From Chromohalobacter canadensis (GTDB lineage: Bacteria > Pseudomonadota > Gammaproteobacteria > Pseudomonadales > Halomonadaceae): a DNA stretch of 64,000 bases. The DNA is taken from positions 620,001 through 684,000 of the forward strand of contig NZ_CP140151.1 in assembly GCF_034479555.1 (NCBI RefSeq), given 5' to 3'. The notes under the pieces were generated by a model, which was not told where the DNA came from, did no database searches, and saw only the letters and a program-made list of their open reading frames with translations. The translations under genes were made by a program, and so were the position numbers. Shown piece by piece: positions 1,580-18,813 of the stretch (within the stretch, counting starts at the first letter, position 1; each line of letters starts with the position of its first letter).

Positions 1580-1604
1580 CACGCCGCACACTCGCCTAAA
1601 ATGA

Positions 1605-1640
1605 GAAGGGCGCCCGTTGGGCGCCCTTCGTCTTGCTTTT
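1605..1640. terminator. Terminator between convergent aceA and asd
   Basis: An 11-bp GC-rich stem (1605-1615 with 1619-1629, 3-base loop) is followed by a T-rich tail ending in TTTTT at 1636-1640. It fits termination of aceA and could also stop asd read-through from the other side. Confidence 0.85.
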
Positions 1641-1657
1641 TCATGCGTGCGTGCGGT

Positions 1658-2773
1658 TCAGCCTTGCTCGCGAAGGATGCCGAGCATTCGCTTGAGCGGC
1701 TCTGCCGCGCCCCACAGCAGCTGATCGCCTACCGAAAAGGCGGAGAGGTATTCGCCGCCCATGGCCAGCTTACGCAGGCGCCCCACCGGCACGTCCAACG
1801 TGCCGGTAGCGGCCGCCGGTGTCAGGCTTTGCAAGGTGGCGTCCTTATCGTTGGGAATCACCTTCGCCCACTGGTTGTGCTTGGCCAGACGGTCTTCGAT
1901 CTCGTCGAGCGGCACGTCCTGCTTGAGCTTGATGGTGAAGGCTTGGCTATGCGAGCGCATCGCACCGATCCGCACGCACAAGCCGTCGATGGGAATCGGC
2001 GAATCGCCGGTGGCGAGAATCTTGTTGCTCTCGACCCCGCCTTTCCACTCTTCCTTGCTCTGACCGTTGTCCATCGCCTTGTCGATCCACGGCAACAGGC
2101 TGCCGGCCAGTGGCTCACCGAACTGCTCGGTGGGAAAGTCACCGCCGCGCATGGCCTGCGTCACCTGGCGGTCGATATCCAGGATCGCACTGCCGGGATC
2201 CGCCAGCGAGGATGCCGCAGCACCGTGCAGGGCACCCATCTGGGAAAGCAGCTCGCGCATGTGCTTGGCGCCCGAGCCCGAAGCGGCCTGGTAGGTCATG
2301 GAGGTCATCCACTCCACCATATTGGCCTCGAACAAGCCGCCCAAGCCCAGCAGCATCAGGCTGACGGTGCAATTGCCGCCCACGAACGTCTTGCCGCCGT
2401 TGGCGAGACTGCGTTCAATGACGTGACGGTTGACCGGATCGAGCACGATGGTTGCCTCGTCCGCCATGCGCAGCGTGCTGGCGGCGTCGATCCAGTAGCC
2501 TTGCCAGCCGGCCTCGCGTAGCGGGCGATAGACGCTTTCTGTGTAGTCGCCGCCCTGAGCGGTGACCACCACGTCGAGACTCTTGAGAGCCTCCAGGTCA
2601 CGGGCATCCTTGAGGGGCGGCACTTCAACCCCGATGTCGGGGCCAGGCTGGCCGACCTGAGAGGTCGTGAAGAACACCGGTTCGAGGCCAGCAAAATCGC
2701 CATCCTCGCGCATGCGTTGCATGAGGACGGATCCCACCATTCCCCGCCAACCGACAAAACCGACTCTAAGCAT
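1658..2773 (-). CDS. asd: Aspartate-semialdehyde dehydrogenase
   Basis: NADPH-dependent reduction of aspartyl phosphate to aspartate semialdehyde, the branch point to lysine/diaminopimelate, threonine and methionine. The protein is 371 aa (E. coli Asd is 367). The N-terminus has the nucleotide-binding start [13 protein letters not shown], and the active-site motif GGNCTVS places the catalytic Cys at residue 135, as in E. coli. AGGAGG lies 7 bases before the ATG. It is 56 bases downstream of leuB on the same strand, the order seen in Pseudomonas, and may be co-transcribed with leuCDB. Confidence 0.97.
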
Positions 2774-2829
2774 GTGTCGTCCTCCTGAAATCTACGAATG
2801 GGCGTATGGCCATGATACGTGAGCCGCGC

Positions 2830-3909
<1,080 letters not shown>

Positions 3910-4012
3910 GGCGTACTCTCTCGATGCATCACTGATGACGTCTCGGGCGCGCACCGGATGACTTGGCGTCCCGGGCGTGCCCGTGTGGTTCATGAATGGC
4001 CGGCAGCTACCG

Positions 4013-4660
4013 TCAACTCGCTTGGCGGAACAACCATGGCCGCGCCTGGCGATGACGCTTTTCGAAGTCATCGATAGCGTCAGCGTCCTTCAACGTCAGG
4101 CCGATATCGTCCAGTCCTTCGAGCAGGCAATGCTTGCGGAACGAGTCGACCTCGAAGGCCAGCACTTCACCGCTGGGCGTGGTGACCTGCTGCGTCTCCA
4201 GGTCGACGTCCAGCCGATAGCCTTCCTCGGCCTCAGCTTCCTGGAACAGCCGATCCACCGTGGCTTCGTCGAACGTGATCAGCAACAGGCCGTTCTTGAA
4301 GGCATTGTTGAAGAAGATATCGGCGAAGCTCGGTGCGATGATCACGCGAAATCCGAAGTCCTCCAGTGCCCAGGGGGCATGCTCGCGCGAACTGCCGCAG
4401 CCGAAGTTGCGGCGTGCCAGCAATACACTGGCGCCCTGGTAACGCGACTGGTTGAGCACGAAATCCGGATTGAGCGGGCGGTTGGCGACGTCCTGGCCCG
4501 GATAGCCCTCGTCCAGGTAGCGCAGCTCGTCGAACAGATTGGGGCCGAAGCCGGTACGCTTGATCGACTTCAGAAACTGCTTGGGAATGATCAGGTCGGT
4601 ATCCACGTTGGCGCGATCCATGGGCGCCACGAGGCCCTGATGACGATCGAACTGTCGCAT
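4013..4660 (-). CDS. leuD: 3-isopropylmalate dehydratase small subunit
   Basis: Small (swivel-domain) subunit that pairs with LeuC to isomerise 2- to 3-isopropylmalate. The protein is 215 aa. Family signatures are [12 protein letters not shown] near the N-terminus and the [14 protein letters not shown] loop. A GTG at 4666 overlaps the leuC stop, but AGGAGG lies 7 bases before the ATG at 4660 and only one base before the GTG, so 4660 is preferred. Only 2 bases separate it from leuC, and its ribosome site lies inside the end of leuC, indicating coupled translation. Confidence 0.96.
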
Positions 4661-4662
4661 GC

Positions 4663-6126
4663 TCACGCCTCCTGTACTTGGCTGTCATCGTTGGCGGCAC
4701 GCTCGGCCCCAAAATCGCGCACGTCGACGAAGTGTCCGGCGATGGCGGCGGCGGCTGCCATGGCGGGGCTCACCAGATGCGTGCGGCCTCCGTAGCCCTG
4801 GCGTCCCTCGAAGTTACGATTGGACGTCGAAGCGCAATGCTCGCCGGTACCCAGCTTGTCGGCATTCATCGCCAGGCACATGGAGCACCCCGGCTCGCGC
4901 CATTCGAAGCCCGCCTCGAGGAAGATTTTGTCCAGCCCTTCCTCCTCGGCCTGGCGTTTGACCAGCCCGGAGCCGGGTACGACCATCGCCAGTTGGATGG
5001 AATCCGCCACCTTGCGCCCCTTGGCGACCTTGGCCGCTTCGCGCAAGTCTTCGATGCGCGAGTTGGTGCACGAGCCGATGAAGACCTTGTCGAGCTGAAT
5101 ATCGGTGATCTGCTGCCCTGCGTGAAGCCCCATGTACTCAAGCGCACGCGAGACGCCCTGCTGCACGGTCTCGTCGCCGGAAGCCGTCGGGTCCGGCACC
5201 TGCGCACCGACACCGGCGACCATCTCCGGGCTGGTGCCCCAGGTGACCTGCGGCTCGATCGCGGCAGCATCGAGCTCGATGCCTTTATCGAAATCCGCAC
5301 CGCTGTCAGAGACCAACCCGCGCCAGTCGGCGACCGCCGCGTCCCAGTATTCCTCGCTGGGCGCGAAGGGGCGTCGACGCAGGTACTCGATGGTCGTCTC
5401 GTCGACCGCCACCAGGCCCACACGTGCGCCAGCCTCGATGGCCATGTTGCAGATGGTCATGCGGCCTTCCATGGAAAGGTCGCGAATCGCGCTACCGGCG
5501 AACTCGATGGCATAGCCTGTGCCGCCGGCGGTGCCGATCTTGCCGATCACGGCCAGCACGATATCCTTCGCCGTCACGCCGAGACCCAGCTCGCCCTCGA
5601 CGCGCACCTGCATGTTCTTCATCTTGCGCTGAATCAGGCACTGGGTCGCCAGCACATGCTCGACCTCGGAGGTGCCGATGCCGTGCGCCAAGGCTCCGAA
5701 GGCACCGTGCGTGGCAGTGTGCGAGTCGCCACAGACGACCGTCATTCCGGGCTGCGTGGCGCCTTGCTCCGGCCCTACCACGTGCACGATGCCCTGGCGT
5801 GCATCGTTGATGCGGAACTCTTCGATGCCAAAACTGGTGCAATTGTCGTCCAGCGTCTCGACCTGAATGCGTGAGACCGGATCGACGATGCCCGCGTTAC
5901 CCTCGGCACGCTCCTTGAGTGTGGTCGGCACGTTATGGTCCGGCGTGGCGAGATTGGTATCCAGCCGCCACGGCTTGCGCCCGGCGAGACGTAGCCCCTC
6001 GAAGGCCTGGGGCGAGGTCACCTCGTGCAACAGGTGACGGTCGATGTAGATCAACGCCGTACCATCGTCGCGTTCCTTTACCAGGTGCCGCGACCAAAGC
6101 TTGTCGTAAAGAGTCTGGCCTGCCAT
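4663..6126 (-). CDS. leuC: 3-isopropylmalate dehydratase large subunit
   Basis: Catalytic [4Fe-4S] aconitase-family subunit of isopropylmalate isomerase in leucine synthesis. The protein is 487 aa, slightly longer than the 466 aa of E. coli. The cluster-binding cysteines are visible in IGSCTNSR and [10 protein letters not shown], and the [12 protein letters not shown] segment is typical. It is the first gene of leuC-leuD-leuB-asd and diverges from a LysR regulator across a 220-base intergenic region, the arrangement found in pseudomonads. Confidence 0.97.
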
Positions 6127-6304
6127 GGAATCTCCTCCACTCGTGCCTCCCCGACCGGGAAGATTGGGCGATGACGATCTATGCCGTCTTGCAACATGTC
6201 GCCTTACAACATGTCGCTAGCTACGCGCCGCGATAACCGACGCAACCTTGATGCCCCTAAGCCTAAGGGGGGTTATGGATAAACGCAATTCATGTTATTT
6301 ATGC

Positions 6305-6317
6305 TTTGGATTCCAAA
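6305..6317. promoter_or_regulatory. Palindrome in leuC/lysR intergenic region, candidate operator
   Basis: Two perfect 6-base arms, TTTGGA and TCCAAA, flank one base, 30 bases before the LysR start codon. LysR proteins usually bind imperfect dyads between divergent genes. The position fits, but binding is inferred. Confidence 0.4.
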
Positions 6318-6346
6318 ATAGAATACCTACCCAAGAGAGCGCGCTC

Positions 6347-7243
6347 ATGGATACGCAAAGCCTGCAAGCCTTCCTCGCGGTCGCCGATTACGGCTCGTTC
6401 TCGCTCGCCGCGGAGCAGCTCCACCTGACCCAGCCCGCCGTCAGCAAGCGCATCGCGGGCCTCGAGGGACAAGTCGGCGCGCAGCTCTTCGACCGCCTCA
6501 ACCGCCGCGTGACACTCACCGAAGCCGGTCGCACCCTGCTGCCGCGTGCCCGCCAGATTCTGGTGATGTTCGACGACAGCCGCCGCGCGCTTTCCAACCT
6601 CAGTGGCGACGTCAGCGGCAGCCTGACCATGGCCACCAGTCACCATGTCGGCTTGCACCGTCTGCCACCGCTGCTCAAGGCTTATACCCAGGCATACCCG
6701 GACGTACGCATGGACATGCGCTTTCTGGACTCGGAGCAGGCCTATCAAGGCGTGCTGGACGGCGACCTGGAGCTCGCCGTGGTCACGCTGGCGCCGGTGC
6801 CCGATCCGGCGCTGACAGTGGTGCCGGTGTGGATCGACCAGTTGCGCTTCGTTTGCGGGCACGAGCACGCCCTCGCAGGACACGATACGCTCGCCCTGTC
6901 GGCGCTGTCCGATTACGACGCCGTGCTGCCGGGACATCTGACCTTCACCCGGGGCATCGTGGTGGAAACCTTCGCCCGCGACGGCCTGCAAGTGAACGTC
7001 TCGCTGTCCACTAATTACCTCGAAACCCTCAAGATGATGGTGGCCATCGGCTTGGGATGGAGCGTGCTGCCCGAGTCCATGATCGACGACGACATCAAGC
7101 TCATGCCCATTGAGCATCGCCCCATCCAACGCCCACTGGGTTACCTGTTTCACAAGAGCCGTACTCTCTCCAACGCCGCACGGGCCATGATCGAGATGCT
7201 GGATGCCGCCCAGGACACGACCGCCCAAGACTGGTCGTCATGA
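6347..7243 (+). CDS. LysR-family transcriptional regulator, divergent from leuC
   Basis: A 298-aa protein of normal LysR length. The N-terminal winged helix-turn-helix spans roughly residues 1-60 (LQAFLAVADYGSFSLAAEQL, then QPAVSKRIAGLE), followed by a two-lobe effector domain. The ATG at 6347 gives the canonical start MDTQSLQAFL. AAGAGAG lies just upstream, while the in-frame extension to 6248 has no support. Divergence from leuC suggests it controls leuCDB, perhaps sensing a leucine-pathway intermediate. That role is inferred from position. Confidence 0.9.
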   Translation: MDTQSLQAFLAVADYGSFSLAAEQLHLTQPAVSKRIAGLEGQVGAQLFDRLNRRVTLTEAGRTLLPRARQILVMFDDSRRALSNLSGDVSGSLTMATSHHVGLHRLPPLLKAYTQAYPDVRMDMRFLDSEQAYQGVLDGDLELAVVTLAPVPDPALTVVPVWIDQLRFVCGHEHALAGHDTLALSALSDYDAVLPGHLTFTRGIVVETFARDGLQVNVSLSTNYLETLKMMVAIGLGWSVLPESMIDDDIKLMPIEHRPIQRPLGYLFHKSRTLSNAARAMIEMLDAAQDTTAQDWSS

Positions 7244-7282
7244 CCCCATGTCGTGAAAGATCAACATCACCCACAAGATAGC

Positions 7283-7302
7283 CAGGGCCTTCGCCTTTTT
7301 TC
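7283..7302 (+). terminator. Weak terminator after the LysR gene
   Basis: A short hairpin (AGGGC, loop CTTC, GCCTT) runs directly into six Ts. The stem is only about five pairs including one G-T, so strength is uncertain. Confidence 0.4.
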
Positions 7303-7452
7303 GTCACTCTTATTTGATCTATAGCGACACAAAAACGCCGTTTATTATCAACCCGGCCGATACGTCGTGTCAGAAAACATCATGTGAGCTGCACAGCACC
7401 GCCTTAGCCTTGTGCCAGACCAACGACACAAACCGCTTGCATGAGGCAGGAC

Positions 7453-8619
7453 ATGACCAACACGACTCCCCAAGCGTGGGCGGAGCAGCCCGCGGAAACA
7501 GCATTGACCCTTCCGGCCCGTTATTTCTACGACCCGCAACTCTTCGCCGCCGAGCGTGACCGCATCTTCATGGGCGCCTGGCATTTCGCCTGTCATGTCA
7601 ACGAGGTGGCCGAGCCCGGCGCCTTCGTGGTGCGCGAGATCTTCGATCAGAGCGTCATCGTGATACGTGACCGCCAAGGTGAGTTGCACGCCTTTCATAA
7701 CGTCTGCCAGCACCGTGGCAACCGTCTGCTCAACGAGACGCGCGGCGTTCAGAAAGGCGTCATCCGCTGTGCCTATCACTCCTGGTGCTACGGGCTGGAC
7801 GGCAGCCTGCGCGCCGCGCCACGCAGCGACCGGATCGCGGCCTTCAATGTCGATGATTACCACATCCCGCCGGTACGCCTGGAAGTCTTCGCGGGGGGCG
7901 TCTACTTCAATCTCGATCCCAACGCGACCGACATGCAGACGCTTTTCCCCGGTGCCGAGACCGCCATACGCGAGGCGATTCCGGACCTGGACGCCATGCA
8001 GCTAATCCAGGAAGACGACGTCATCATCCCGGCCAACTGGAAAGTGATCATGGACAACTCCATCGAAGGCTATCACTTCCAGCTTTCGGGGCCCCACCAC
8101 GTCGACCTGGCCGCCTTGATCGATTTCGATGGCTACCGCCTGACCCATCACGACAACTGGTGGACCTATGGCGCGCCGCCCAATGCCAGCGCCAAGCAAG
8201 CCTACGGCGTGCCGCTGGACCGCCCGCCCGGCAACGGCGATGGCTTTTTCAACATCGGCATCTGGCCGCATAACACCTTCTACCAGTTCCCGTTCTCGCA
8301 GTGCATGGGCACGTTCATGATCATCCCGCTGGATGCCGAACGCTCGATCCTGCGCTTCGGGTATTACACCCCGCACGACACGCTGCCGGAAGTGACCAAG
8401 GCCAGCATGCGCTGGATGAACGAAGAGCTCGGCCCCGAGGACATCGAGCTCAACATCAGCGTGCAGAAAGGCCTGCACTCGCTGGGCTATGACCAAGGCC
8501 GTTACATGATAGATGCCGCGCGCAGCAATGAAAGCGAGCATCTGGTGCTGCACTTCCACCGTCTGGTGTTCCAGGCCCTGCACGGCGACGCCACCACACC
8601 CCAGGAGGCGCCGTCATGA
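7453..8619 (+). CDS. Rieske non-heme iron oxygenase, large subunit (quaternary-amine type)
   Basis: Oxygenase component of a two-part Rieske system, partnered by the reductase at 12116. The protein is 388 aa. The Rieske [2Fe-2S] ligands are C85-x-H87 and C106-x2-H109. The mononuclear iron site has E205-x2-H208, with Glu where ring-hydroxylating dioxygenases have Asp; carnitine and betaine oxygenases (CntA, GbcA) share this Glu. The second His is at 215/216 rather than the usual +5, a local insertion. AGGCAGG precedes the ATG at 7453 and favours it over the ATG at 7441. The likely reaction is oxidative demethylation or C-N cleavage of a betaine-like amine. Genes around it support a quaternary amine, but the substrate is unknown. 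Confidence 0.87.
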   Translation: MTNTTPQAWAEQPAETALTLPARYFYDPQLFAAERDRIFMGAWHFACHVNEVAEPGAFVVREIFDQSVIVIRDRQGELHAFHNVCQHRGNRLLNETRGVQKGVIRCAYHSWCYGLDGSLRAAPRSDRIAAFNVDDYHIPPVRLEVFAGGVYFNLDPNATDMQTLFPGAETAIREAIPDLDAMQLIQEDDVIIPANWKVIMDNSIEGYHFQLSGPHHVDLAALIDFDGYRLTHHDNWWTYGAPPNASAKQAYGVPLDRPPGNGDGFFNIGIWPHNTFYQFPFSQCMGTFMIIPLDAERSILRFGYYTPHDTLPEVTKASMRWMNEELGPEDIELNISVQKGLHSLGYDQGRYMIDAARSNESEHLVLHFHRLVFQALHGDATTPQEAPS

Positions 8620-9383
8620 CATTCACCGGTCAACGCGTGCTGGTGACCGGTGGCGCCCGCGGTATCGGCGCCGCCACGGCACGGCGCTTTCTGGAACAGG
8701 GCGCACGCGTCGCCATCGGCGCACGCCGAGAAGCCTCCGTCGACGCGTTTCGCGATTCGCTGGCGAATACCGACCTGGCCGCTGCCACGGTGGAAGCCGC
8801 CGTCGGCGAGATCGGCACCCAGGACGAATGCCAGGCGGTCGTGGAAACCGCCGTCGCGCGTCTCGGTGGACTCGACATCCTGGTCAATTGCGCCGGCGTC
8901 TTCGAGGAAGTGCCCTTCGAGGCGGTCACGCAGGAACACTGGGAGAGCACCTTCCGCGTCAACGTGGGCGGCACCTTCTTCTGCATCCAGGCGGCGCTAC
9001 CGCACCTGGAGGCCAGTGGCGGTAACGTCGTCAACCTGGGCTCGGATGCCGGCCTGATCGGCTTTCCGCCGAGCAGCGTCTACTCCGGCGCCAAGGCCGC
9101 TGTGGTCAACCTGACCCGTGCCCTGGCCCTGGAGCTGGCCGGCCGCATACGGCTTAACTGCGTGTGCCCGGGCAATGTCGAGACCGACATGATCCAGCAC
9201 GCCGCCGAGACCAGCGACGATCCACATGCTTATCTGGACGCGGCCCATCGACGTTCGCCCCTGAAGCGCATGGGGCAACCGCAAGAGATCGCCGATGCCG
9301 TGCTCTATCTCGCCTCCCCCCAGGCGGGCTTCACGCATGGCGCCATCCTGTCCGTCGACGGTGGCGGCGTGTGCGGCTTTTGA
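8616..9383 (+). CDS. Short-chain dehydrogenase/reductase
   Basis: A 255-aa classical SDR, NAD(P)-dependent. The cofactor motif TGGARGIG is at residues 11-18, NCAG takes the place of the usual NNAG, and the catalytic pair is Y156/K160 (YSGAK). The C-terminus SVDGGG is typical. It overlaps the oxygenase stop by 4 bases (ATGA), with AGGAGG 7 bases upstream, so the two are translationally coupled. In the operon it probably oxidises or reduces a hydroxy/oxo intermediate after the oxygenase. The substrate cannot be read from sequence. Confidence 0.88.
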   Translation: MTFTGQRVLVTGGARGIGAATARRFLEQGARVAIGARREASVDAFRDSLANTDLAAATVEAAVGEIGTQDECQAVVETAVARLGGLDILVNCAGVFEEVPFEAVTQEHWESTFRVNVGGTFFCIQAALPHLEASGGNVVNLGSDAGLIGFPPSSVYSGAKAAVVNLTRALALELAGRIRLNCVCPGNVETDMIQHAAETSDDPHAYLDAAHRRSPLKRMGQPQEIADAVLYLASPQAGFTHGAILSVDGGGVCGF

Positions 9384-9449
9384 GCCCTCACTGCATCGCG
9401 CACCGCCCCTGACGACAACACAACGACAATACACCACGAGGAGACTCCC

Positions 9450-10409
9450 ATGACCGCTACCCCCCGACACCGCACCCCACTGGGCCGTTTGACGTCCACG
9501 CTCATCGGCGGCGCCATGGGCGCGCTGCTGCTCGCACCTTTCGGGATCGCCCAGGCCGAGGACGACAGGGTCCGCTTCGGCACGCCGCAATGGCCCGGTG
9601 CTACCGTCAAGTCGGAAGTGGCACGACAGATTCTGGATACGCTCGGCTATCGCACCTCGCTGCGGGAAGCCAGCTCGTCGATCATCCTGGAAGGCATGGC
9701 GAGCGGCGATCTCGACGTCAACATGGCGCTCTGGCGGCCGTCACAAAGCGGCATGCTCGACCCTCGTCTGGAGTCCGGCGAACTGGTCGAAGTCGTCAAG
9801 AACATCGACGGCGCACGCTTTCAGCTCGCGGTTCCCGAGTATGTTTGGGACGCCGGCGTGCATTCGATGGCCGACCTCGCCGAGCACGCGGAACGCTTTG
9901 ATCGCACCTTCTATGGCATCGAGCCAGGCAACGTCGGCAACGAATTGATGCAGAAAGCCATCGACGACGGCACCTACGGCCTGGATGACTGGCGAGTCGC
10001 CGCGTCCAGCGAGACCGGCATGATGTCGCAAGTCGAAAGCGACATCCGCAACGACCAATGGATCGCCTTCCTTGGCTGGGAACCGCATTGGATGAACGTC
10101 GACTTCGACATTCGCTACCTCGAGGACCCCAAGAACCTGTGGGGCGACGCCAGTTCAGTGTCCACGGTGGTTGCCAGCAACTTCGCCGAGCGTCACCCCA
10201 ACGTCATCGCCTTTCTCGACAGCATGGTCGTGCCCATCGAGGTCCAGGACCAATGGGTCTACGCCTTCAGTCGCGATGATCAGCCGCTGGAAGCGGTCGC
10301 CGCGAACTGGATCCAGTCGCATCCCGAGCGGGTCAACGCCTGGCTCGAAGGCGTCACCACGGCGGATGGTGATACGAGTGCACAAGACGCCTACCAGGCC
10401 TCGCGTTGA
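9450..10409 (+). CDS. Periplasmic glycine betaine/choline-type ABC substrate-binding protein (orphan)
   Basis: A 319-aa OpuAC/ProX-like binding protein. A signal peptide runs to about residue 36 (APFGIAQA, then EDD). Aromatic residues expected for a cation-pi cage appear in PQWPGA, ALWRPSQ and FLGWEPHWM, matching the way this family holds trimethylammonium groups. An AGGAG site precedes the ATG. No permease or ATPase gene lies nearby, so it must borrow a transporter encoded elsewhere or act as a sensor. Its place inside the operon is the best clue that the pathway handles a quaternary amine. Confidence 0.88.
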   Translation: MTATPRHRTPLGRLTSTLIGGAMGALLLAPFGIAQAEDDRVRFGTPQWPGATVKSEVARQILDTLGYRTSLREASSSIILEGMASGDLDVNMALWRPSQSGMLDPRLESGELVEVVKNIDGARFQLAVPEYVWDAGVHSMADLAEHAERFDRTFYGIEPGNVGNELMQKAIDDGTYGLDDWRVAASSETGMMSQVESDIRNDQWIAFLGWEPHWMNVDFDIRYLEDPKNLWGDASSVSTVVASNFAERHPNVIAFLDSMVVPIEVQDQWVYAFSRDDQPLEAVAANWIQSHPERVNAWLEGVTTADGDTSAQDAYQASR

Positions 10410-10438
10410 ACTTTCGCCCTTCGCCTCAGGATGCTTGC

Positions 10439-12103
10439 ATGACAACTCATCAAGATTACGACTACATCATCGTCGGGGCAGGGTCGGCCGGTTGCGTGCT
10501 GGCCGACCGACTCACCGCCGATGGCGAAGCCCACGTATTGCTGCTCGAAGCCGGGCCTCGTGATCGCTCGTGGACCATCGACATGCCGGCCGCCATGGGA
10601 GCGGCCATCGATGGGCCACGCTTCAACTGGCACTATTGGTCGGGCCCCGAGCCCCACCTCGACGAACGGCGCATCGCCACGCCTCGCGGGCGCACGCTGG
10701 GCGGCTCGTCGTCGATCAACGGCATGGTGTACATCCGTGGCCACGCCCGCGATTACGATGTCTGGGAAGAAGCCGGCTGCCACGGTTGGGGCTACCGGCA
10801 CGTCCTGCCCTACTTTCGCCGTGCCGAAACCCACGAACTGGGCGCCGATGCCTACCATGGCGAGACAGGGCCTTTGCATGTCAGTGCCGGTCGTCCCGAG
10901 GATCCCTTGGCAAAAGCCTTCCTGGCCGCCGGGGAGGAAGCCGGCTATGCCGCCAGCGACGATCTCAACGGCTACCGTCAGGAAGGCTTCGGCCGTGTCG
11001 ACCGCACGACGCGCGCGGGCAGGCGCTGGAGCACGGCGCGTGGCTACCTGGCACGCGCCGAAAAGCGCGCCAACCTGACGGTCGTCACCCACGCGCTGGC
11101 CCAGCGCGTGCTCGTCGGCGAGGCCGGTGCCGAGGGTGTCGAATATCGCCACGAGGAGACGTTATACCGAGCACACGCCACCCGTGAGGTCATCCTGGCG
11201 GGTGGTGCCATCAACAGCCCCCAGTTGTTGATGCTCTCCGGCATCGGCCCCGACGACGAATTGGCCCGCTGGGGCATTCCTCGCGTCCACACGCTCGATG
11301 GCGTGGGCCGTCGCCTCAGTGACCACCCGGATACCGTGGTGGCGTACCGCTGCCGCCAGCCAGTCTCACATGCGCCCTGGACCTATGCCCCCCGCAAGTG
11401 GTGGCTAGGCATGCGCTGGTTCCTCGATCGGCGCGGCCTCGCGGCGAGCAACCAGTTCGATGCTGGCGCCTTCATCCGCTCGCGGGCGGGGGTCGAGCAT
11501 CCCGACCTCCAGTTGACGTTCATGTCACTGGCCATCGCGCCCGGCACCACCGAAAGCCTGCGCGAACATGCGTTCCAGGTGCACATCGATTTGATGCGCC
11601 CCACGAGCATGGGCCGCGTGCGCCTCAGGAGCGCGGCCCCCGCGCGAGCGCCGGACATCGTCTTCAACTACCTGGCCAGCGAGCGCGACCGCGCCGACAT
11701 GCGCGCGGCCGTGCGTTGCGTCAGGGAACTGGTCGAGCAGCCGGCATTCGCGGATTTGCGGGGCGAGGAAATTTCCCCCGGTGCCGACTGCCAGAGCGAT
11801 GAGGCGCTGGATGCCTGGGCGCGCGCCACCACCGAAACCGGCTATCACGCCGCCGGCACCTGCAAGATGGGCCCAGCCGACGATCCGGAAGCCGTGGTCG
11901 ACCCCGAGCTTCGCGTGCATGGCGTCGCCGGCTTGCGCGTGGTCGATGCCTCGATCATGCCCCGCGTGGTCAGCGGCAATACCAATGCGCCGACCGTCAT
12001 GATCGCTGAAAAGGCCAGCGACATGATCCTCGGCCATGCCCCGCCGATGCCCTCGGATGCTCCCTTCTGGCTGCATGACGACTGGCAACACCAGCAACGT
12101 TGA
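10439..12103 (+). CDS. GMC-family FAD-dependent alcohol dehydrogenase, choline dehydrogenase-like
   Basis: A 554-aa glucose-methanol-choline oxidoreductase, the same length as BetA (556). The FAD motif [10 protein letters not shown] is at about 13-22. GMC signatures are [17 protein letters not shown] and [16 protein letters not shown], and the catalytic His is H470 in [10 protein letters not shown]. The open frame starts at 10406, but the ATG at 10439 gives the normal [13 protein letters not shown] start. It probably oxidises a primary alcohol to an aldehyde, which the aldehyde dehydrogenase at 13120 would take over. It is not placed with betB/betI, so it need not be the housekeeping choline dehydrogenase. 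Confidence 0.88.
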
Positions 12104-12115
12104 GGAGGACATGCC

Positions 12116-13069
12116 ATGACCGCGACGCCATTCGACGTCGTGATCGAAAGCCACCAGCGGCTATCGAGCGCTATCTACCAGATCGAGTTGGCCGCCGCCG
12201 ATGGCGCTGCCCTGCCTCCGGCCCCGGCGGGTGCCCATCTCGAGATACACCTTCCCAATGGCCTGGTACGTCACTATTCGCTGCTGGACGACGCGCGTCA
12301 CGGCCGTTATCGCATCGGCGTGCTGCATGACCCGGCCTCGCGCGGGGGATCCGCCTTTCTGGCCGAGCAGGCCGGGCTCGGCACGCGACTGCGCGTTTCC
12401 CCGCCCCAGGATCGCTTTCCCCTCGCCGACGCCCGGCAGCACTACCGGCTGATTGGTGGCGGGATTGGCATCACGCCACTCGTCGCCATGGCACGCCGAC
12501 TCGTCGAGCGGGGCGACACGGTCGAGGTGCATTACCTGGTGCGCCACCGGGACGAGGCGGCGTTCCTCGACGAACTCCGCGCGTTCCTGCCCGCGTCGCG
12601 GCTGCACCTGCACGCCTCCGCCACGCAGGGAAGGCTCGCTCCGCGTGCGCTGCTGGGCGACTACACGCCGGACACCGGCGTTTATGCCTGCGGCCCCGAA
12701 AGCCTGCTGGACGCCTTGACCGACGCGGCACAGGCGTGGCCCCCGGGCGCACTGCAAATGGAACGTTTCCGGGGCGCATCGCAAGCGCCGGCAGCGCGTA
12801 CCACGCCTTGCCAGATCGAGCTCGCGCGCAGCGATAAGCACTTCACGCTCGCCGAGGATGAAACCCTGCTCGACGGCCTGGCACGCGCCGGCGCGGCGCC
12901 GGACAGCCTGTGCTGTGAAGGGGCCTGCGGCACCTGCGGTATCCCCGTGCTCGCAGGCGAGGTCGAGCATCGCGACGTGCTCCAGTCCGATGCCGAAAAA
13001 GCCACCAACGACATCATTTACGTCTGCGTTTCGCGCCCCAAGGGGGAGCGACTGGTGCTTGACCTGTGA
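12116..13069 (+). CDS. Rieske oxygenase reductase (phthalate dioxygenase reductase type)
   Basis: A 317-aa electron-transfer partner for the oxygenase at 7453. Domain order is flavin-binding barrel (RHYSLL, residues about 50-55), NAD domain ([13 protein letters not shown] and [12 protein letters not shown]), then a C-terminal plant-type [2Fe-2S] ferredoxin with ligands C266, C271, C274 and C304. This FMN/NAD/ferredoxin order is that of the phthalate dioxygenase reductase family, which includes CntB/YeaX and vanillate demethylase reductase. GAGGAGG precedes the start, 12 bases after the GMC gene. Confidence 0.9.
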
Positions 13070-13119
13070 GGTCGGCACGAGCGCTTTCTACGCCCATTCG
13101 ACAATCGCCAAGGTACGTC

Positions 13120-14619
13120 ATGTCTTCCACCTCTATGCCTCTCACCCACGCCGACTGGCAACAGCGCGCTGCCACCCTCTCGCTGGACGGCACCGCCTAC
13201 ATCGACGGTCACCGCTATGCGACACGCCAGGGTGAATCGCTCGCGTCGGTCAATCCCATGACGGGTACGTCGCTGACGACGGTCGCGGCCTGCGGCCCGG
13301 CGGATATCGATGTCGCGGTCGCCGCGGCACGCCGCGCATTCGACACCGGTGCCTGGTCACGTGCCGAGCCGACGACACGCCGCCGGTGCCTTCAGGCGCT
13401 CGCCGCTCAGGTGCGCGATCACGCCGAGGAATTGGCCCTGCTCGACAGCCTGGAAGTTGGCAAGTGCATCCACGAAGCCCTGGACGACGTCGAGGAAGCG
13501 GCCTTGCTCTTCGACTGGTTCGGCGAGCTCCAGGACAAAAGCTACGACCAGCTCGCGCCCAGTCCCAATAACGTACAGGCCACGGTGGCCCACGAGCCTC
13601 TCGGCGTCGTTGCCGCCGTGGTACCGTGGAACTTTCCCTTGCATAACGCGGCGGTCAAAGTGGCTCCCGCGCTGGCCGCCGGCAATAGCGTGGTGCTCAA
13701 ACCCGCCGAGGAATCGTCGCTCTCCGCGCTGCGCCTGGCGGAACTCGCGACCCAGGCCGGCCTCCCGCCCGGTGTACTCAATGTCGTGCCGGGATATGGG
13801 CATATCGCCGGCGAAGCGCTGGGCCGGCACGCGGATGTCGACGCGCTCGGCTTCACCGGCTCCACCGAGATCGGCAAACGCTTTCTGGTCTACTCGGGGG
13901 AATCCAACATGAAACCCGTATGGCTGGAATGCGGCGGCAAGAGCCCACATCTGGTGTTCGACGATTGCCCCGACCTGGATGCCGCCGTGGACAACGCCGT
14001 GGCCGGTATCTTCACCAACGCCGGCCAGGTCTGCTCGGCGCATTCGCGCCTGTTGCTGCAAGACGGCATCGCCGAGCGTTTCCTCGAGGCCTTGCAGGTA
14101 CGCATCGAGGCGCTCGTGCCAGGAGACCCGCTCGATCCGTCAACGACGCTCGGCCCGCTCGTCAGTCAGGCGCAGTTCGACAAGGTCCGCGACTACCTAG
14201 CAGTCGGCAAGCGTGAGGCCACGCTGCTGTACGGCGGCGAGACGCTGCAGGCGGCCGGCGGTACATTGTTCGTCGCGCCCACGGTGTTCACCGATGTCGA
14301 ACCGCACCACCGGCTCTTCCAGGAAGAGATTTTCGGCCCCGTGCTCAGCGTGACGCGCTTCAGCGACGAGCACCAGGGCGTGACATTGGCCAACGCCAGC
14401 CAGTATGGTTTGGCGGCGTCCCTATGGACCGCCGACCTGGGACGCGCCCATCGCCTTTGCGATGCCCTGCAGGCCGGTACCGTGACGGTCAATGGCGTCG
14501 ATGCCGTCAGCCCGCAGACGCCCTTCGGCGGTATGAAGCAATCAGGCATCGGCCGCGACTACGCGCTGGCCGGCATGCACAAATACATGGCGCTCAAGAC
14601 GCGCTGGATCCACTATTGA
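13120..14619 (+). CDS. Aldehyde dehydrogenase, PuuC-like
   Basis: A 499-aa NAD(P)+-dependent aldehyde dehydrogenase. The catalytic Cys is C305 (NAGQVCSAH), the general base E270 (LECGGKS), and N171 lies in VVPWNFPLH. The overall pattern is closest to PuuC, the gamma-glutamyl-aminobutyraldehyde dehydrogenase. The frame is open from 13066, but ATG 13120 with AAGG upstream gives a family-like N-terminus. It probably converts the aldehyde made by the GMC enzyme, or released by the Rieske enzyme, to an acid. Close relatives accept several amino-aldehydes, so the substrate stays open. Confidence 0.9.
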   Translation: MSSTSMPLTHADWQQRAATLSLDGTAYIDGHRYATRQGESLASVNPMTGTSLTTVAACGPADIDVAVAAARRAFDTGAWSRAEPTTRRRCLQALAAQVRDHAEELALLDSLEVGKCIHEALDDVEEAALLFDWFGELQDKSYDQLAPSPNNVQATVAHEPLGVVAAVVPWNFPLHNAAVKVAPALAAGNSVVLKPAEESSLSALRLAELATQAGLPPGVLNVVPGYGHIAGEALGRHADVDALGFTGSTEIGKRFLVYSGESNMKPVWLECGGKSPHLVFDDCPDLDAAVDNAVAGIFTNAGQVCSAHSRLLLQDGIAERFLEALQVRIEALVPGDPLDPSTTLGPLVSQAQFDKVRDYLAVGKREATLLYGGETLQAAGGTLFVAPTVFTDVEPHHRLFQEEIFGPVLSVTRFSDEHQGVTLANASQYGLAASLWTADLGRAHRLCDALQAGTVTVNGVDAVSPQTPFGGMKQSGIGRDYALAGMHKYMALKTRWIHY

Positions 14620-14654
14620 TGGCCTCGTTTTCGCCATCGCCATAGGAGCGTTAC

Positions 14655-15389
14655 ATGACGACCGCTACCGAGATTCCCGGCACACCGCGCGAACAACTGG
14701 CTTGCGCGTTCCGCTGGCTGGCTCGCCTCGACATGCACGAAGGGGTCGCCAATCATTGCAGCCTGGCCACCCAGGCAGACGGCATGCGCTTTTTGGTCAA
14801 CCCCGAGGGGCGTCATTTCGCGGAAATGCGTGCCAGTGATCTGATCGAGGTAGATGCCAGCGCCGCACAACGCCCCGAGTCCATCGATCCCACCGCCTGG
14901 GCCATCCATGGTGCCATGCATCGCCAGGGCCGCGACGTGGGATGCGTGATGCATGCTCACTCCCTCTACGCCACCGCCCTGGCCTGCCTGGAGACGCCGG
15001 AGCTGCCCCCGGTGGAACAGAACGCCATGCGCTTCTTCGAGCGGGTGCATGTCGATGCCGGGTTCGACGGCATGGGGCTCGACGAAGAAGCGGAACGCCT
15101 CGGTCAGTTGGCCGGCACGGCGCCGATCCTCCTGCTCGGCAATCATGGCGTAGTCGCCACCGGCCAGGACGTCGCCGAAGCCTTCGACAACCTCTATTAC
15201 TTCGAGCGCGCCTGCCGCTCCTACCTGGTAGCGCGCGCCAGCGGTCTGCCCGTGCGCCCCGTCGCTCCCGAAGTCGCACGCAAGACCGCGCAGCAATGGG
15301 AAGACTATCTGGCACAAGGCTCGGCACACATGCATCTTGCCGCCTTGATGCGCCTGCTCGACCGCGATGCGCCCGACTATCGTGATTGA
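14655..15389 (+). CDS. Class II aldolase/adducin-fold protein lacking the aldolase Glu
   Basis: A 244-aa protein with the zinc site of class II aldolases: H100 and H102 (MHAHSLY) and H164 (GNHGVV). Aligned on the WxxH and HxH landmarks of fuculose-phosphate aldolase, the catalytic Glu73 position is alanine here (A81, in DPTAWAIH), with the 19-residue spacing to the zinc His kept. It may therefore be a decarboxylase, epimerase-like or non-aldol lyase, or a binding protein. AGGAG precedes the ATG. It ends the enzyme series of the operon and overlaps the regulator by 23 bases. Confidence 0.82.
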   Translation: MTTATEIPGTPREQLACAFRWLARLDMHEGVANHCSLATQADGMRFLVNPEGRHFAEMRASDLIEVDASAAQRPESIDPTAWAIHGAMHRQGRDVGCVMHAHSLYATALACLETPELPPVEQNAMRFFERVHVDAGFDGMGLDEEAERLGQLAGTAPILLLGNHGVVATGQDVAEAFDNLYYFERACRSYLVARASGLPVRPVAPEVARKTAQQWEDYLAQGSAHMHLAALMRLLDRDAPDYRD

Positions 15390-16395
15390 TACGCAGCGCA
15401 CAACGCCAGCCCCAGAACGCATCGCGATCCTGCTGATGCCGCAGTTTTCCTTTGCCGGTCTGGGGGCGATGCTGGATCCGCTGTTCATCATCAACTGGCT
15501 GGCCCAAGAGCCGCGCTTCAAGTGGCAATTATTGGGCAGCGATGCCACGGTCGCAGCCTCCAACGGCGTGCCTCTAAGCGTGGATACCGAGTGGCCCGCG
15601 CCCACCGAGCTGGATAGTGTCTTCGTCCTGGCAAGCTTCGAAACCAAGACGTATACCGGCGACAAGCGTATCGCCATGTGGCTACGTCAGTGCGCAGCGG
15701 CTGGCGTAGCGTTAGGCGGCATCGAGATGGGCAGCGAAGTGCTGGCCGCGGCGGGCGTGTTCGACGACCATCAGGTGGCCGTGCACTGGGATAACCTGGA
15801 AGGCTTTCGCGAGCTTTATCCACGCATCCAGGCCACCAGCGATCTCTATCGCATCGCGGGCCAGCGGCTGAGTTGCGCCGGTGGCACCGCCGTGCTCGAC
15901 ATGATGTTCGCCTGGCTCACGCCACGTGTGGAGCCGCCCTACATGGAGGAGTTGCGCAATCATCTACTAGAACGACGCCAACGCCGCGACGACAGCGAAC
16001 AGTTGTCTGCGGCGCCCGAACATCATGTCGAAACCTCTGCGCAGTTACGCAAGGTAATACGTACCATGCGACGCACCCTGGAGACGCCGCTCTCGGCTCC
16101 GGCGCTGGCCGCCCTGGTGGGGCTCTCGCCGCGCCAGCTGGAGCGACGCTTCAAGGCCGAACTCGGCGTCACGCCGATTCGTTATTACCTGTGGCTGCGT
16201 ATCAATCGCGCACACCGGTTACTGCAGCAAACCGACCTAAGCGTGGCGGAAGTCGCCAACTGCGCGGGATTCGGTTCACTAGAGCACTTTTCACGGGCCT
16301 ACCGACGCTTCTTCGGCTGCGCTCCCAGCGACGACCGCCTGCAATCGCGAGACGCACCAGTGGTCCCGGTGCGACTTTTTCCCGTCAAGCGCTGA
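15367..16395 (+). CDS. AraC-family regulator with GATase1/DJ-1-like sensor domain
   Basis: A 342-aa regulator of the GbdR/CdhR/ArgR type. The N-terminal ~200 residues form a DJ-1/PfpI-like domain with GGIEMGSEVLAAAG where true amidotransferases have a nucleophile elbow, so it is a sensor, not an enzyme. The C-terminal ~100 residues hold the double helix-turn-helix (PALAALVGLSPRQLERRF and VAEVANCAGFGSLEHFSRAY). Relatives respond to glycine betaine, dimethylglycine, carnitine or arginine. It overlaps the aldolase-fold gene by 23 bases; a GTG at 15382 is an alternative start. It likely activates this operon. Confidence 0.86.
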   Translation: MRPTIVIDTQRTTPAPERIAILLMPQFSFAGLGAMLDPLFIINWLAQEPRFKWQLLGSDATVAASNGVPLSVDTEWPAPTELDSVFVLASFETKTYTGDKRIAMWLRQCAAAGVALGGIEMGSEVLAAAGVFDDHQVAVHWDNLEGFRELYPRIQATSDLYRIAGQRLSCAGGTAVLDMMFAWLTPRVEPPYMEELRNHLLERRQRRDDSEQLSAAPEHHVETSAQLRKVIRTMRRTLETPLSAPALAALVGLSPRQLERRFKAELGVTPIRYYLWLRINRAHRLLQQTDLSVAEVANCAGFGSLEHFSRAYRRFFGCAPSDDRLQSRDAPVVPVRLFPVKR

Positions 16396-16407
16396 GGGCA
16401 CTCACCA

Positions 16408-18264
16408 TCATGACGACGAACTGTCGTCCTCAGCGGGTTTAACACCCAGCACCTCGGGGATGGTCTGCCGCACGTAACGGCCCGGAGCGGGTTCGATGGG
16501 CGTCAACTCGCCTTCACCAGGAAGGCGCGCCGCGACCATCTTGTCGGGATCGGCGTAGCGGTTGTCGGTCATCCACGCCTGCCAATGCGGCCACCAGGAT
16601 CCCTCATGGTAGTCGGCGGCCTCGAACCAGGTGTCGGGATCGTCAGGAATCTCGTCATTGGTCCAGTAACCGTACTTGCGTTTTTCCGGTGGGTTGACGA
16701 TCCCTGCGATGTGTCCCGCGCCTCCCAGTACGAAGGTCGTCGGTCCTTTGGGCAGGCGAGTGGCCAGATAGCTACTCCGCCACTTGGCGATATGATCGTC
16801 GCGCGCGGAGACGAAGTAGCTCGGCGTCGAGATCTTGCGCAAGTCGATCTTGACGCCATCGAGTTCTATCCCACCGGGCTGAACGAGGCGATTCTCGCGA
16901 TACATGTGGCGCAGATACCAGCCATGGGTGCCCGCTGGCAGATTGGTACCGTCACCGTTCCAGTACAACAGATCGAAAGCCGCCGGCGCCTCGCCCTTGA
17001 GATAATTGCTGATATAGAACGACCAGAAGAGATCGTTCTCGCGCAGCAAGTTGAAGGAAAACGCCATGACGCGGCCATCGAGGTAGCCGTCACGCGCGAG
17101 CTGGCGCTCGATGCCCGCCAGCACCGGCTCGCGGAGGAACACGCCGATTTCGCCGGGGTCGCTGAAATCCTGCAACGTAGCCATGTAGGTGACCGAGCGC
17201 ACCTTGCGGCCACGCAGGCTACTGGTCAGGTACGCGACCGTGGTCGCCGCCAAGGTGCCACCGATGCAATAGCTCAACAGATTGACGGACTTCTCGCCGC
17301 AGGCTTGCGTGATCGCCGCCATGGCGGCGATCGGCCCCGACTGCATGTAGTCGGCCCAGGTGAGGTGCCGCTGCTCGGGCCCAGGGTTGCGCCAGGAGAT
17401 CATGAAGACGGTATGCCCTTGCGCCACCAACCATTTCACCAAGGAATTGTCCGAGCGCAAGTCGAGGATGTAGTACTTGTTGATCCAGGGCGGTACGACC
17501 AGAAGCGGGGTCTTGAATACCTTCTCGGTACTCGGCTGGTACTGGATCAGCTGCATCAGCTCGTTTTCGAAGATCACCTCGCCCGGCGTGACGGCGAGGT
17601 TCTCACCCAGCCGGAAGGCACTGCGGTCGCTCATCGCCACATTGAGGCCTTCGGCGGAGTTGGCCAGGTCCTCGCGCAGTCGCTTGAGTCCCTCGACAAG
17701 GTTCTGTCCTCGCGTTTCGAGGGTCTTGCGTACCACTTCAGGATTGGTGGAGACGAAGTTGCTCGGCGCCAGTGCGTTGACGTACTGCCGAGCATAGAAT
17801 TCCAATTGATGGCGCGTCTCGGGAGTCAGACCGCCCAGGTTCGCCAACAACTCGTCGACGGCACGTACAAAAAGCAGGTACTGCTGCAGGATATAGCGAT
17901 AGAAGGGATGCGAGTGCCAGGCATCATCGCGAAAGCGGCGATCCTCTGGGCTCGGCTCGATCACCGCAGGTACGCTCTGGCCCATGAGTTCCCGCAGGGC
18001 ATTCTGCCAGACGCGTAGCTGATCCTGCGCCAGACGCATCTGCACGGCATACACCGCTGGCGCATTGACGACCATGGCCTCGGCACCGATACGCAGGCTC
18101 TCCTGAATATCGGCATACACCGAAGCGCCGGCGTCGCTTGGCCACAGCCGATTGAAAGCCTCCTGCATGAGGGCTTGGTATTGCTCACCGAACGCACTCA
18201 CCTGGCGCTGCCAAGCGTGTGGGTCACCGAAGGCGTCATCGCCCTCTTCGGGCCCTTGCCACAT
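16408..18264 (-). CDS. phaC: Class I poly(3-hydroxyalkanoate) synthase
   Basis: Polymerises (R)-3-hydroxyacyl-CoA into PHA granules. The protein is 618 aa, typical of class I. The N-terminal PhaC domain is followed by an alpha/beta-hydrolase domain whose lipase-like box is SYCIGG, with nucleophile C333. The catalytic Asp lies in VSARDDHIAKW and the His in GGAGHIAGIVNPP. GGGGAG lies 8 bases before the ATG. phaP follows upstream in the same direction with a 93-base gap, so both may be one unit. No phaA/phaB is nearby, a separation common in halomonads. Confidence 0.95.
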   Translation of the reverse strand: MWQGPEEGDDAFGDPHAWQRQVSAFGEQYQALMQEAFNRLWPSDAGASVYADIQESLRIGAEAMVVNAPAVYAVQMRLAQDQLRVWQNALRELMGQSVPAVIEPSPEDRRFRDDAWHSHPFYRYILQQYLLFVRAVDELLANLGGLTPETRHQLEFYARQYVNALAPSNFVSTNPEVVRKTLETRGQNLVEGLKRLREDLANSAEGLNVAMSDRSAFRLGENLAVTPGEVIFENELMQLIQYQPSTEKVFKTPLLVVPPWINKYYILDLRSDNSLVKWLVAQGHTVFMISWRNPGPEQRHLTWADYMQSGPIAAMAAITQACGEKSVNLLSYCIGGTLAATTVAYLTSSLRGRKVRSVTYMATLQDFSDPGEIGVFLREPVLAGIERQLARDGYLDGRVMAFSFNLLRENDLFWSFYISNYLKGEAPAAFDLLYWNGDGTNLPAGTHGWYLRHMYRENRLVQPGGIELDGVKIDLRKISTPSYFVSARDDHIAKWRSSYLATRLPKGPTTFVLGGAGHIAGIVNPPEKRKYGYWTNDEIPDDPDTWFEAADYHEGSWWPHWQAWMTDNRYADPDKMVAARLPGEGELTPIEPAPGRYVRQTIPEVLGVKPAEDDSSSS

Positions 18265-18357
18265 ACGTCATCTCCCCGCATAGCAAAACGGTTCACACAC
18301 ATGTGCGCCGTCGGCAGCCGCTTCTCTTCGCGACTGCCGGGGCATGGCATGGGGTAT

Positions 18358-18813
18358 CTATTGTTTGCTGCTACTGCGTGAAGAAGACGACTGGTTGCCG
18401 CCGCTCGACGCCTTGGCGGGCTCGGACGCCTTGGCAGACTCAGACGCCGACTTCATGTTTTCCGAGGCTTGATCGGCGGCGTTCTGCCCCGCTTCAGACA
18501 TCATCTCCTCGAGTTCGCTTTTGAACTTGAGACTGATGTCGGCCATGGCGCGTGCGTCTTCGAGCATTTGCTTGGAGAGCGCATTGAGCATGTCGGCCTG
18601 CTGGGTGGTGAAATCGCGCGCGTCCTCGGCGTCCTTGACCTCAGAAGCGGCCCGCATGCGCTCCACACCCAGCTGGCTATAGCGTTTCATGGCATCGAGC
18701 TGGTATTCGGTCATTCGCTCCATGTTGTCCAGCATCAAACCGTTGAACTTACGCATGGGCTCGAAAAAGCCACGCGTCTGTTCGGAGAAGGCACTAAACA
18801 TTTTGTCCTGCAT
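18358..18813 (-). CDS. phaP: Phasin (PHA granule-associated protein)
   Basis: A 151-aa protein rich in helix-forming residues, with a phasin-family core from about residues 1-110 (SEQTRGFFEPMRKFN, YQLDAMKRYSQLGVERM). It ends in a Ser/Ala/Lys-rich tail of about 40 residues. Phasins coat PHA granules and limit their coalescence. A strong AGGAGG precedes the start. It lies directly upstream of phaC on the same strand, which supports the call. Confidence 0.88.
   Translation of the reverse strand: MQDKMFSAFSEQTRGFFEPMRKFNGLMLDNMERMTEYQLDAMKRYSQLGVERMRAASEVKDAEDARDFTTQQADMLNALSKQMLEDARAMADISLKFKSELEEMMSEAGQNAADQASENMKSASESAKASEPAKASSGGNQSSSSRSSSKQ

Follow-up and report, generated by a model that had tools for sequence, protein, structure and literature searches.

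The window analysed here, a 64 kb stretch of the Chromohalobacter canadensis genome (positions 620001-684000 of a single 3.595 Mb contig), carries at 7453-16395 eight genes that form a real, conserved, co-regulated and catabolic unit around a Rieske oxygenase. Judging from gene families and sequence comparison, the leading explanation, at about even odds, is a catabolic regulon that is induced for the use of an alcohol-bearing quaternary ammonium compound as a nutrient, with substrate and product inferred. The strongest new points are an operator shared across lineages and a Rieske clade in which the iron-ligand histidines are spaced H-X7-H. All eight genes are intact open reading frames (ORFs) on the plus strand of the chromosome, with overlaps of 4, 4 and 23 bp and gaps of 66, 23, 12 and 35 bp at their junctions. 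The operator elements and genes are as follows:

7249-7264, plus strand: operator element 1, TGTCGTGAAAGATCAA, exact match to TGTCG-N6-ATCAA
7314-7329, minus strand: operator element 2, exact match
7336-7351, plus strand: operator element 3, two mismatches, similar elements at the same place in relatives
7368-7383, plus strand: operator element 4, two mismatches, similar elements at the same place in several relatives
7453-8619 (ORF open from 7441), plus strand: Rieske oxygenase with a fold like that of CntA; the iron loop reads H-X7-H, CntA position 203 is Ser and the Cys pair is absent
8616-9383, plus strand: SDR dehydrogenase, lineage-specific accessory
9450-10409, plus strand: OpuAC-type periplasmic substrate-binding protein (SBP), no ABC partners adjoining; it retains the three Trp of the cage, with Gly in place of the choline-hydroxyl Asp
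10433-12103 (open from 10406), plus strand: GMC alcohol dehydrogenase, a BetA paralogue, 48% identical to the genome's own BetA-type protein
12116-13069, plus strand: flavin/2Fe-2S reductase of the PDR/VanB kind, which presumably supplies electrons to the Rieske protein
13066-14619, plus strand: aldehyde dehydrogenase (ALDH), closest to the NCBIfam model PuuC and next to BADH, reaching the cut-off of neither
14655-15389, plus strand: class II aldolase/adducin-fold protein, PRK07490 family (above cut-off), HxH...H kept, aldolase Glu replaced by Ala81
15367-16395, plus strand: AraC-family regulator, nearest GbdR (below cut-off), presumed binder of the four operator elements

For the Rieske gene the start at 7453 is preferred over 7441, as a GAGG-like box and the ATG at 7453 are kept in most aligned relatives. 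A sequence-only reading of this DNA had described eight same-strand genes with short gaps or overlaps, and this layout holds: all ORFs are open and the Pfam and NCBIfam assignments match its family names, although PuuC, GbdR and BetA stand only as nearest names, below the curated equivalog cut-offs.

The same eight genes occur in identical order in 17 of 20 loci from Halomonadaceae, Marinobacteraceae and Oceanospirillaceae, and the set is therefore not a chance grouping. This also answers the search for conserved neighbourhoods in Halomonadaceae that had been proposed earlier, here with two neighbouring families included. The loci were collected by scanning the Rieske protein against one genome per species (84,980 species), which gave 109 relatives, the best 80 of which were kept; they are not independent of one another, and gene counts within them are lower bounds, since some contigs stop short and some genes escaped the simple gene caller. 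Within the same protein cluster, GMC was present in 77 of the 80 loci, AraC in 74, the aldolase-fold gene in 70 (and by tblastn also in L042, L059 and L069), ALDH in 42, the SBP in 31 and 17 (two subtypes), the reductase in 25 and the SDR in 17. Among named relatives Chromohalobacter comes closest, with Rieske proteins 95-97% alike. The three exceptions to the gene order lack the SDR (L010, which has a short SBP), the SDR and SBP (L018), or these two and the reductase (L017). In L010, from Aidingimonas halophila, the SBP ORF (11133-11556) encodes 129 amino acids and the unit is otherwise complete. Pseudomonas, Burkholderiaceae and Alphaproteobacteria carry a rearranged core of Rieske, BetA-like GMC and GbdR-like AraC genes, usually with the aldolase-fold gene and often with an ALDH or a binding protein nearby as separate units. 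Rieske and GMC genes adjoin in 58 loci overall, outside the halophiles mostly with AraC next to them, and GMC is missing only from the metagenome-assembled genome (MAG) loci L071-L073. The reductase is often absent outside the halophile lineage. The SDR was considered as a core step and rejected: found in 17 of the 80 loci, it is a lineage-specific accessory.

The Rieske gene is rare. Only 6 of 398 Pseudomonadota genomes match at E <= 1e-60, four of them (the window's own included) with at least 56% identity and two only with 34-37%, and 11 of 97 near-relative genomes, again including its own, match the protein at E <= 1e-100. One copy lies on the Pseudomonas aeruginosa plasmid pF045_1 together with GMC, AraC, aldolase-fold, ALDH and SBP genes; this core (L084, 13959-21302) comes from a cystic fibrosis isolate, and close to it lie a recombinase, mercury genes and a Tn3 transposase.

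An alignment of the sequences that precede the Rieske gene, taken from the 20 halophile loci and the window, revealed 16-bp repeats of the form TGTCG-N6-ATCAA; three exact matches occur in the whole 64 kb, two of them in the array. Within 250 bp upstream of the Rieske gene and allowing up to one mismatch, a mean of 2.06 elements was found in 18 Halomonadaceae loci (0.05 in random pieces), a count that is partly circular since the motif was derived from the halophile alignment, which does not apply to the means of 1.05 in 44 Pseudomonas, 1.0 in seven Burkholderiaceae and 0.67 in three alphaproteobacterial loci (0.06 in random pieces in each case; the control pieces come from the same loci and are mostly coding DNA). 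No element was found in this interval in three Leucothrix-type MAGs. In the non-halophile loci the element precedes 53 of 58 Rieske genes, 40 of 50 aldolase-fold genes, all 22 ALDH genes and 10 of 31 SBP genes, compared with means of 0.7, 0.5, 0.2 and 0.2 for 40 shuffled motifs. It also precedes 35 of 342 unit-starting genes of other families, some of which are divergent neighbours of the Rieske gene. Standing before separate units in other lineages, the operator ties the aldolase-fold gene, the ALDH and some of the SBPs to the Rieske-GMC core as one regulon, with no need to invoke position in an operon. The claim of one regulated unit is thus borne out by a conserved upstream array, on grounds of sequence conservation. 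The half-sites of CdhR are given as GGTCGC and as very similar to those of GbdR, SouR and ArgR in one study (PMC5806209), and the TCG core of such half-sites is present in the operator elements before the target genes. Because of this resemblance, the operon's own GbdR-like regulator is the natural candidate to bind them.

The single 16-mer was rejected as a finder of further regulon members, being too common in the genome (469 matches with up to one mismatch; 90 for the reversed-pattern control); a stricter form of the motif occurs at six places, two of them at this array. Scattered matches number two, one and zero in this genome's loci of carnitine, choline and betaine type, respectively, and form no array. 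In three Burkholderiaceae loci (L057, L039 and L066) an isochorismatase-family hydrolase gene (15383-16108 in L057, the copy assigned by Pfam) diverges from the SBP gene, with an exact operator between the two.

The Rieske protein has CntA as its nearest solved relative in both sequence and fold (33-34% identical), in line with the comparison with CntA made earlier, and it keeps the group V features of a CntA-like fold, a bridging Glu and aligned His-His-Asp ligands; the putative iron ligands in the window protein are H212, H220 and D334. The spacing of the iron-ligand histidines, however, is H-X7-H in 80 of 80 sequences (the window and 79 relatives), compared with H-X4-H in nine of nine reference Rieske proteins; among 19 other PF00848 proteins, 15 have H-X4-H, one has H-X3-H and three could not be parsed. 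According to PMC7948474, group Va (CntA, choline monooxygenase, OxyBAC) has Tyr or Phe at CntA position 203, in cation-pi contact, and group Vb (GbcA, BmoA, Stc2) has Asn. The clade has neither, the column being Ser in 79 and Ala in one of the 80. A Cys pair beside the iron (Cys206 and Cys209 in CntA) is likewise described as a group V feature in PMC10952381, and it is missing here: Gly occupies position 206 in 80 of 80, there is no Cys in the 209 column, and many members have one Cys directly before the second His instead. Five of the seven CntA pocket residues checked are replaced in 79 or 80 of the 80 sequences (Y203 to S, N270 to Y, Y295 to F, Y315 to M, F319 to L), Y225 and F258 being kept. 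The loss of Tyr203 speaks against a simple copy of CntA chemistry. We advance, tentatively and with somewhat less than even confidence, that among Rieske oxygenases for quaternary ammonium compounds the clade represents a third class, in which the H-X7-H loop is lengthened and the ammonium site is non-aromatic, and which works with a dedicated GMC enzyme and a non-aldolase aldolase-fold metalloenzyme in an undescribed pathway for a choline-like compound, within one AraC regulon spanning Gamma-, Beta- and Alphaproteobacteria. A second Rieske gene (38%) with one internal TGA is found in L097 (1501-2598); the genome in question, of the same order, carries the core gene as well.

The binding protein scored 273 bits against the choline ABC binding protein model TIGR03414 (cut-off 379), and it keeps what we take to be the Trp cage (W48, W95, W210), in line with the orphan betaine-type binding protein claimed earlier. 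The ChoX residues Asp45, presumably the contact to the choline hydroxyl, and Tyr119 (F124 in the window) are exchanged in the halophile orthologues, with Gly for Asp45 in 16 of 17 (one gap) and Phe for Tyr119 in 17 of 17. The SBPs of the Pseudomonas and Burkholderiaceae clusters keep every ChoX contact checked (31 of 31). Asp45 alone is not diagnostic, as the carnitine-type cluster L089 has it too. The same core has thus been joined by two distinct SBP subtypes, a point in favour of a cationic, quaternary ligand that somewhat resembles choline.

The GMC protein reached 667 bits against BetA (TIGR01810, cut-off 732) and 764.8 bits against the choline dehydrogenase subfamily PRK02106 (cut-off 605), the ALDH scored 558 bits against its curated equivalog (cut-off 850), and the regulator, for which GbdR is indeed the nearest family, scored 232 bits against NF052371 (cut-off 480). 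The aldolase-fold protein belongs to PRK07490 (362.8 bits, cut-off 260), and its nearest PDB entries include the decarboxylase NovR and adducin. The metal-binding HxH...H is kept (H100, H102 and H164, aligned with 4c24), and the catalytic Glu of fuculose aldolase FucA (in SSEW) aligns with Ala81, an Ala conserved in no less than 95% of the 70 aligned rows, among them the window. This makes aldol chemistry unlikely, and decarboxylation may be guessed at.

From these families the following course can be proposed. The AraC/GbdR-like regulator would sense the compound or an intermediate and activate from TGTCG-N6-ATCAA before the Rieske gene, while the stand-alone SBP would hand the compound to an ABC core encoded elsewhere. 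The BetA-like GMC enzyme would convert -CH2OH to the aldehyde and the ALDH would convert the aldehyde to the acid; the Rieske protein and its reductase, by analogy with the CntA-like fold, would hydroxylate the carbon next to N+, so that an amine or formaldehyde leaves. The aldolase-fold metalloprotein may then act on the leftover carbon skeleton, perhaps as a decarboxylase, with the SDR as a lineage-specific helper. One explicit scheme, from homocholine over beta-alanine betaine to trimethylamine and malonate semialdehyde and on to acetaldehyde and acetate, gives most of the operon's enzymes a step, but we regard it in this form as improbable.

Several observations weigh against a regulon for an alcohol-bearing quaternary ammonium compound. 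Tyr203, through which CntA contacts the ammonium group, is missing from the Rieske protein, as is the Cys pair, so that its pocket may not fit a quaternary ammonium group; the halophile SBP lacks the choline-hydroxyl Asp; and the GMC, ALDH and SBP families are broad. On the regulatory side, the 16-bp word is generally over-represented in the window (108 matches with up to two mismatches, 50 expected), the element precedes only 10 of 31 SBP genes and, among AraC genes that start a unit, only 4 of 18, and the operator counts of the aldolase-fold and ALDH genes are not independent, as these genes diverge from a shared stretch in 17 loci. Finally, L071-L073 have the Rieske gene without GMC, AraC or aldolase-fold genes in reach and without the operator.

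It is unlikely that the substrate is instead a sulfonium osmolyte or an N-methyl compound of tertiary or aromatic type, whose cation the aromatic cage of the SBP would serve. The five pocket replacements would fit this, as would the L073 copy near MTTB-like methyltransferase, benzoate-CoA-ligase-like and salicylyl-CoA-hydroxylase-like proteins; but the fold and nearest solved relatives are those of quaternary-amine enzymes, choline- or betaine-type SBPs stand beside the core in two lineages, and the L073 neighbours may not belong with its Rieske gene. That MAG locus (817-15330) carries a stand-alone H-X7-H Rieske gene and, in addition to the proteins named, two 2-oxoglutarate (2OG) oxygenases, a GbcA-like Rieske protein and a polyamine-type ABC system.

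Slightly less likely still is a second, redundant route from choline over glycine betaine to dimethylglycine, with GMC and ALDH making betaine and the Rieske protein demethylating it. The PRK02106 score of the GMC protein, the fully kept ChoX contacts in the Pseudomonas and Burkholderiaceae SBPs and the GbdR-like regulator agree with it, but the cluster Rieske protein has neither the Asn nor the Cys pair of the group Vb demethylases, the window SBP is without the choline Asp, and the co-regulated aldolase-fold gene is left without explanation. Moreover, elsewhere in the genome stand a BetA/BetB/choline-SBP locus, a GbcA-like Rieske protein (L002) with Asn203 and the Cys pair beside a weakly similar reductase (24-25%), and a further locus that combines an SBP and an AraC gene with genes similar to carnitine dehydrogenase (41%), thioesterase (49%) and BKACE (35%). 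Since choline, betaine and carnitine each appear to be served elsewhere in the same genome, they are less likely as substrates, which is redundancy and not proof. This gives a better reason for the earlier view that these three compounds are unlikely substrates, whereas its argument from the extra SDR falls with the lineage-specific distribution of that gene. A very improbable carnitine or gamma-butyrobetaine pathway of the CntAB kind would explain the CntA kinship and the co-encoded PDR/VanB-type reductase, but not the replacement of five of the seven pocket residues named in PMC7948474, nor the different partners of CntA/YeaW-type loci (SSADH-like ALDH, tartrate dehydrogenase and, in two of three, BCCT), nor the separate carnitine dehydrogenase/BKACE locus. 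Another quaternary-amine-like locus of the genome (L118, C1:2127000-2140000), perhaps for a trimethylated basic amino acid, encodes a TmpA-like 2OG oxygenase (above cut-off), a 5-guanidino-2-oxopentanoate-decarboxylase-type enzyme, an aminotransferase, amino-acid ABC parts, a quaternary-amine SBP and an AraC protein 36% like that of the window.

The operon is bordered by a minus-strand asd-leuB-leuD-leuC group and a LysR gene upstream and by a polyhydroxyalkanoate synthase on the minus strand downstream. The asd-leu group and the synthase lie outside it, and the LysR gene (6248-7243) was rejected as a member, as it co-occurs with leuC and leuC neighbours in 17 loci. Scans of 6200-18400 gave three sigma-70 promoter sites (1.9 in shuffles) and four terminators (6.6 in shuffles). 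A membrane-like protein of about 450 amino acids follows the AraC gene in L019 (17392-18768) and nine other halophile loci, preceded by an operator match in three; for the L010 copy neither NCBIfam nor Pfam gives a match, and the L019 copy stays below every Pfam cut-off. In the alphaproteobacterial locus L102 (1301-7616), genes for a CcmP-like shell protein, an acylating aldehyde dehydrogenase and an aminotransferase, a microcompartment-like set, run towards the Rieske-GMC pair.

A literature search by gene families and homocholine found no paper whose title or abstract opening names this gene set (H-X7-H and the operator sequence were not among the search terms), and no description was found in the literature searched on homarine, Chromohalobacter Rieske enzymes and NovR; within that literature, the earlier statement that no described pathway combines all eight genes stands. 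If the reading as a regulon for an alcohol-bearing quaternary ammonium compound is true, it adds a route of quaternary-amine use that standard annotation splits into a choline dehydrogenase, a ring-hydroxylating dioxygenase and an aldolase, and would allow a natural test of the limits to which the two-His iron site in Rieske oxygenases can be stretched. Other genomes can be searched for the regulon by its shared operator, which also offers a direct reporter for the inducing compound.

Among known systems, CntA/CntB (PDB 6y8j and 6y9d; YeaW/YeaX) shares the nearest solved sequence and fold, the bridging Glu, the two His and Asp and a co-encoded PDR/VanB-type reductase, but the window clade has H-X7-H for H-X4-H, Ser for Tyr203, no Cys206/Cys209 and an altered pocket. 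Its partners are GMC, aldolase-fold protein, SBP and AraC, whereas three CntA/YeaW-type loci from annotated plasmids have an SSADH-like ALDH and tartrate dehydrogenase, with a BCCT transporter in two. GbcA/GbcB, which in Pseudomonas are under GbdR-type control, BmoA and the stachydrine demethylase Stc2 (group Vb) are likewise Rieske oxygenases acting on betaines; they have Asn203, and the genome's L002 protein has Asn203 and the Cys pair, neither of which the window Rieske protein possesses. CdhR, GbdR, SouR and ArgR share the AraC-family, GbdR-kind regulator and TCG-core half-sites, but the half-site here is TGTCG-N6-ATCAA, in up to four copies and both orientations, and that of CdhR GGTCGC. 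The Rieske-SDR-BKACE-ALDH-carnitine dehydrogenase clusters of Ruegeria THAF33 (L088) and Pseudomonas MPC6 (L089), possibly a gamma-butyrobetaine route with a Rieske hydroxylase, share a GlxA-type regulator, a group V Rieske protein, an SDR and an ALDH with the window operon, and L089 also the reductase and a choline-type SBP; they differ in Phe203, the Cys pair and H-X4-H, in a BKACE and a 3-hydroxyacyl-CoA-dehydrogenase-type (carnitine dehydrogenase-like) gene, and in having no GMC or aldolase-fold gene annotated. Compared with betIBA/ChoXWV, with which it has in common a GMC protein close to the genome's BetA-type protein and an SBP of the same superfamily, the operon adds the Rieske and aldolase-fold genes and a GbdR-like regulator with its own operator, and in the halophiles its SBP has lost the choline-hydroxyl contact.

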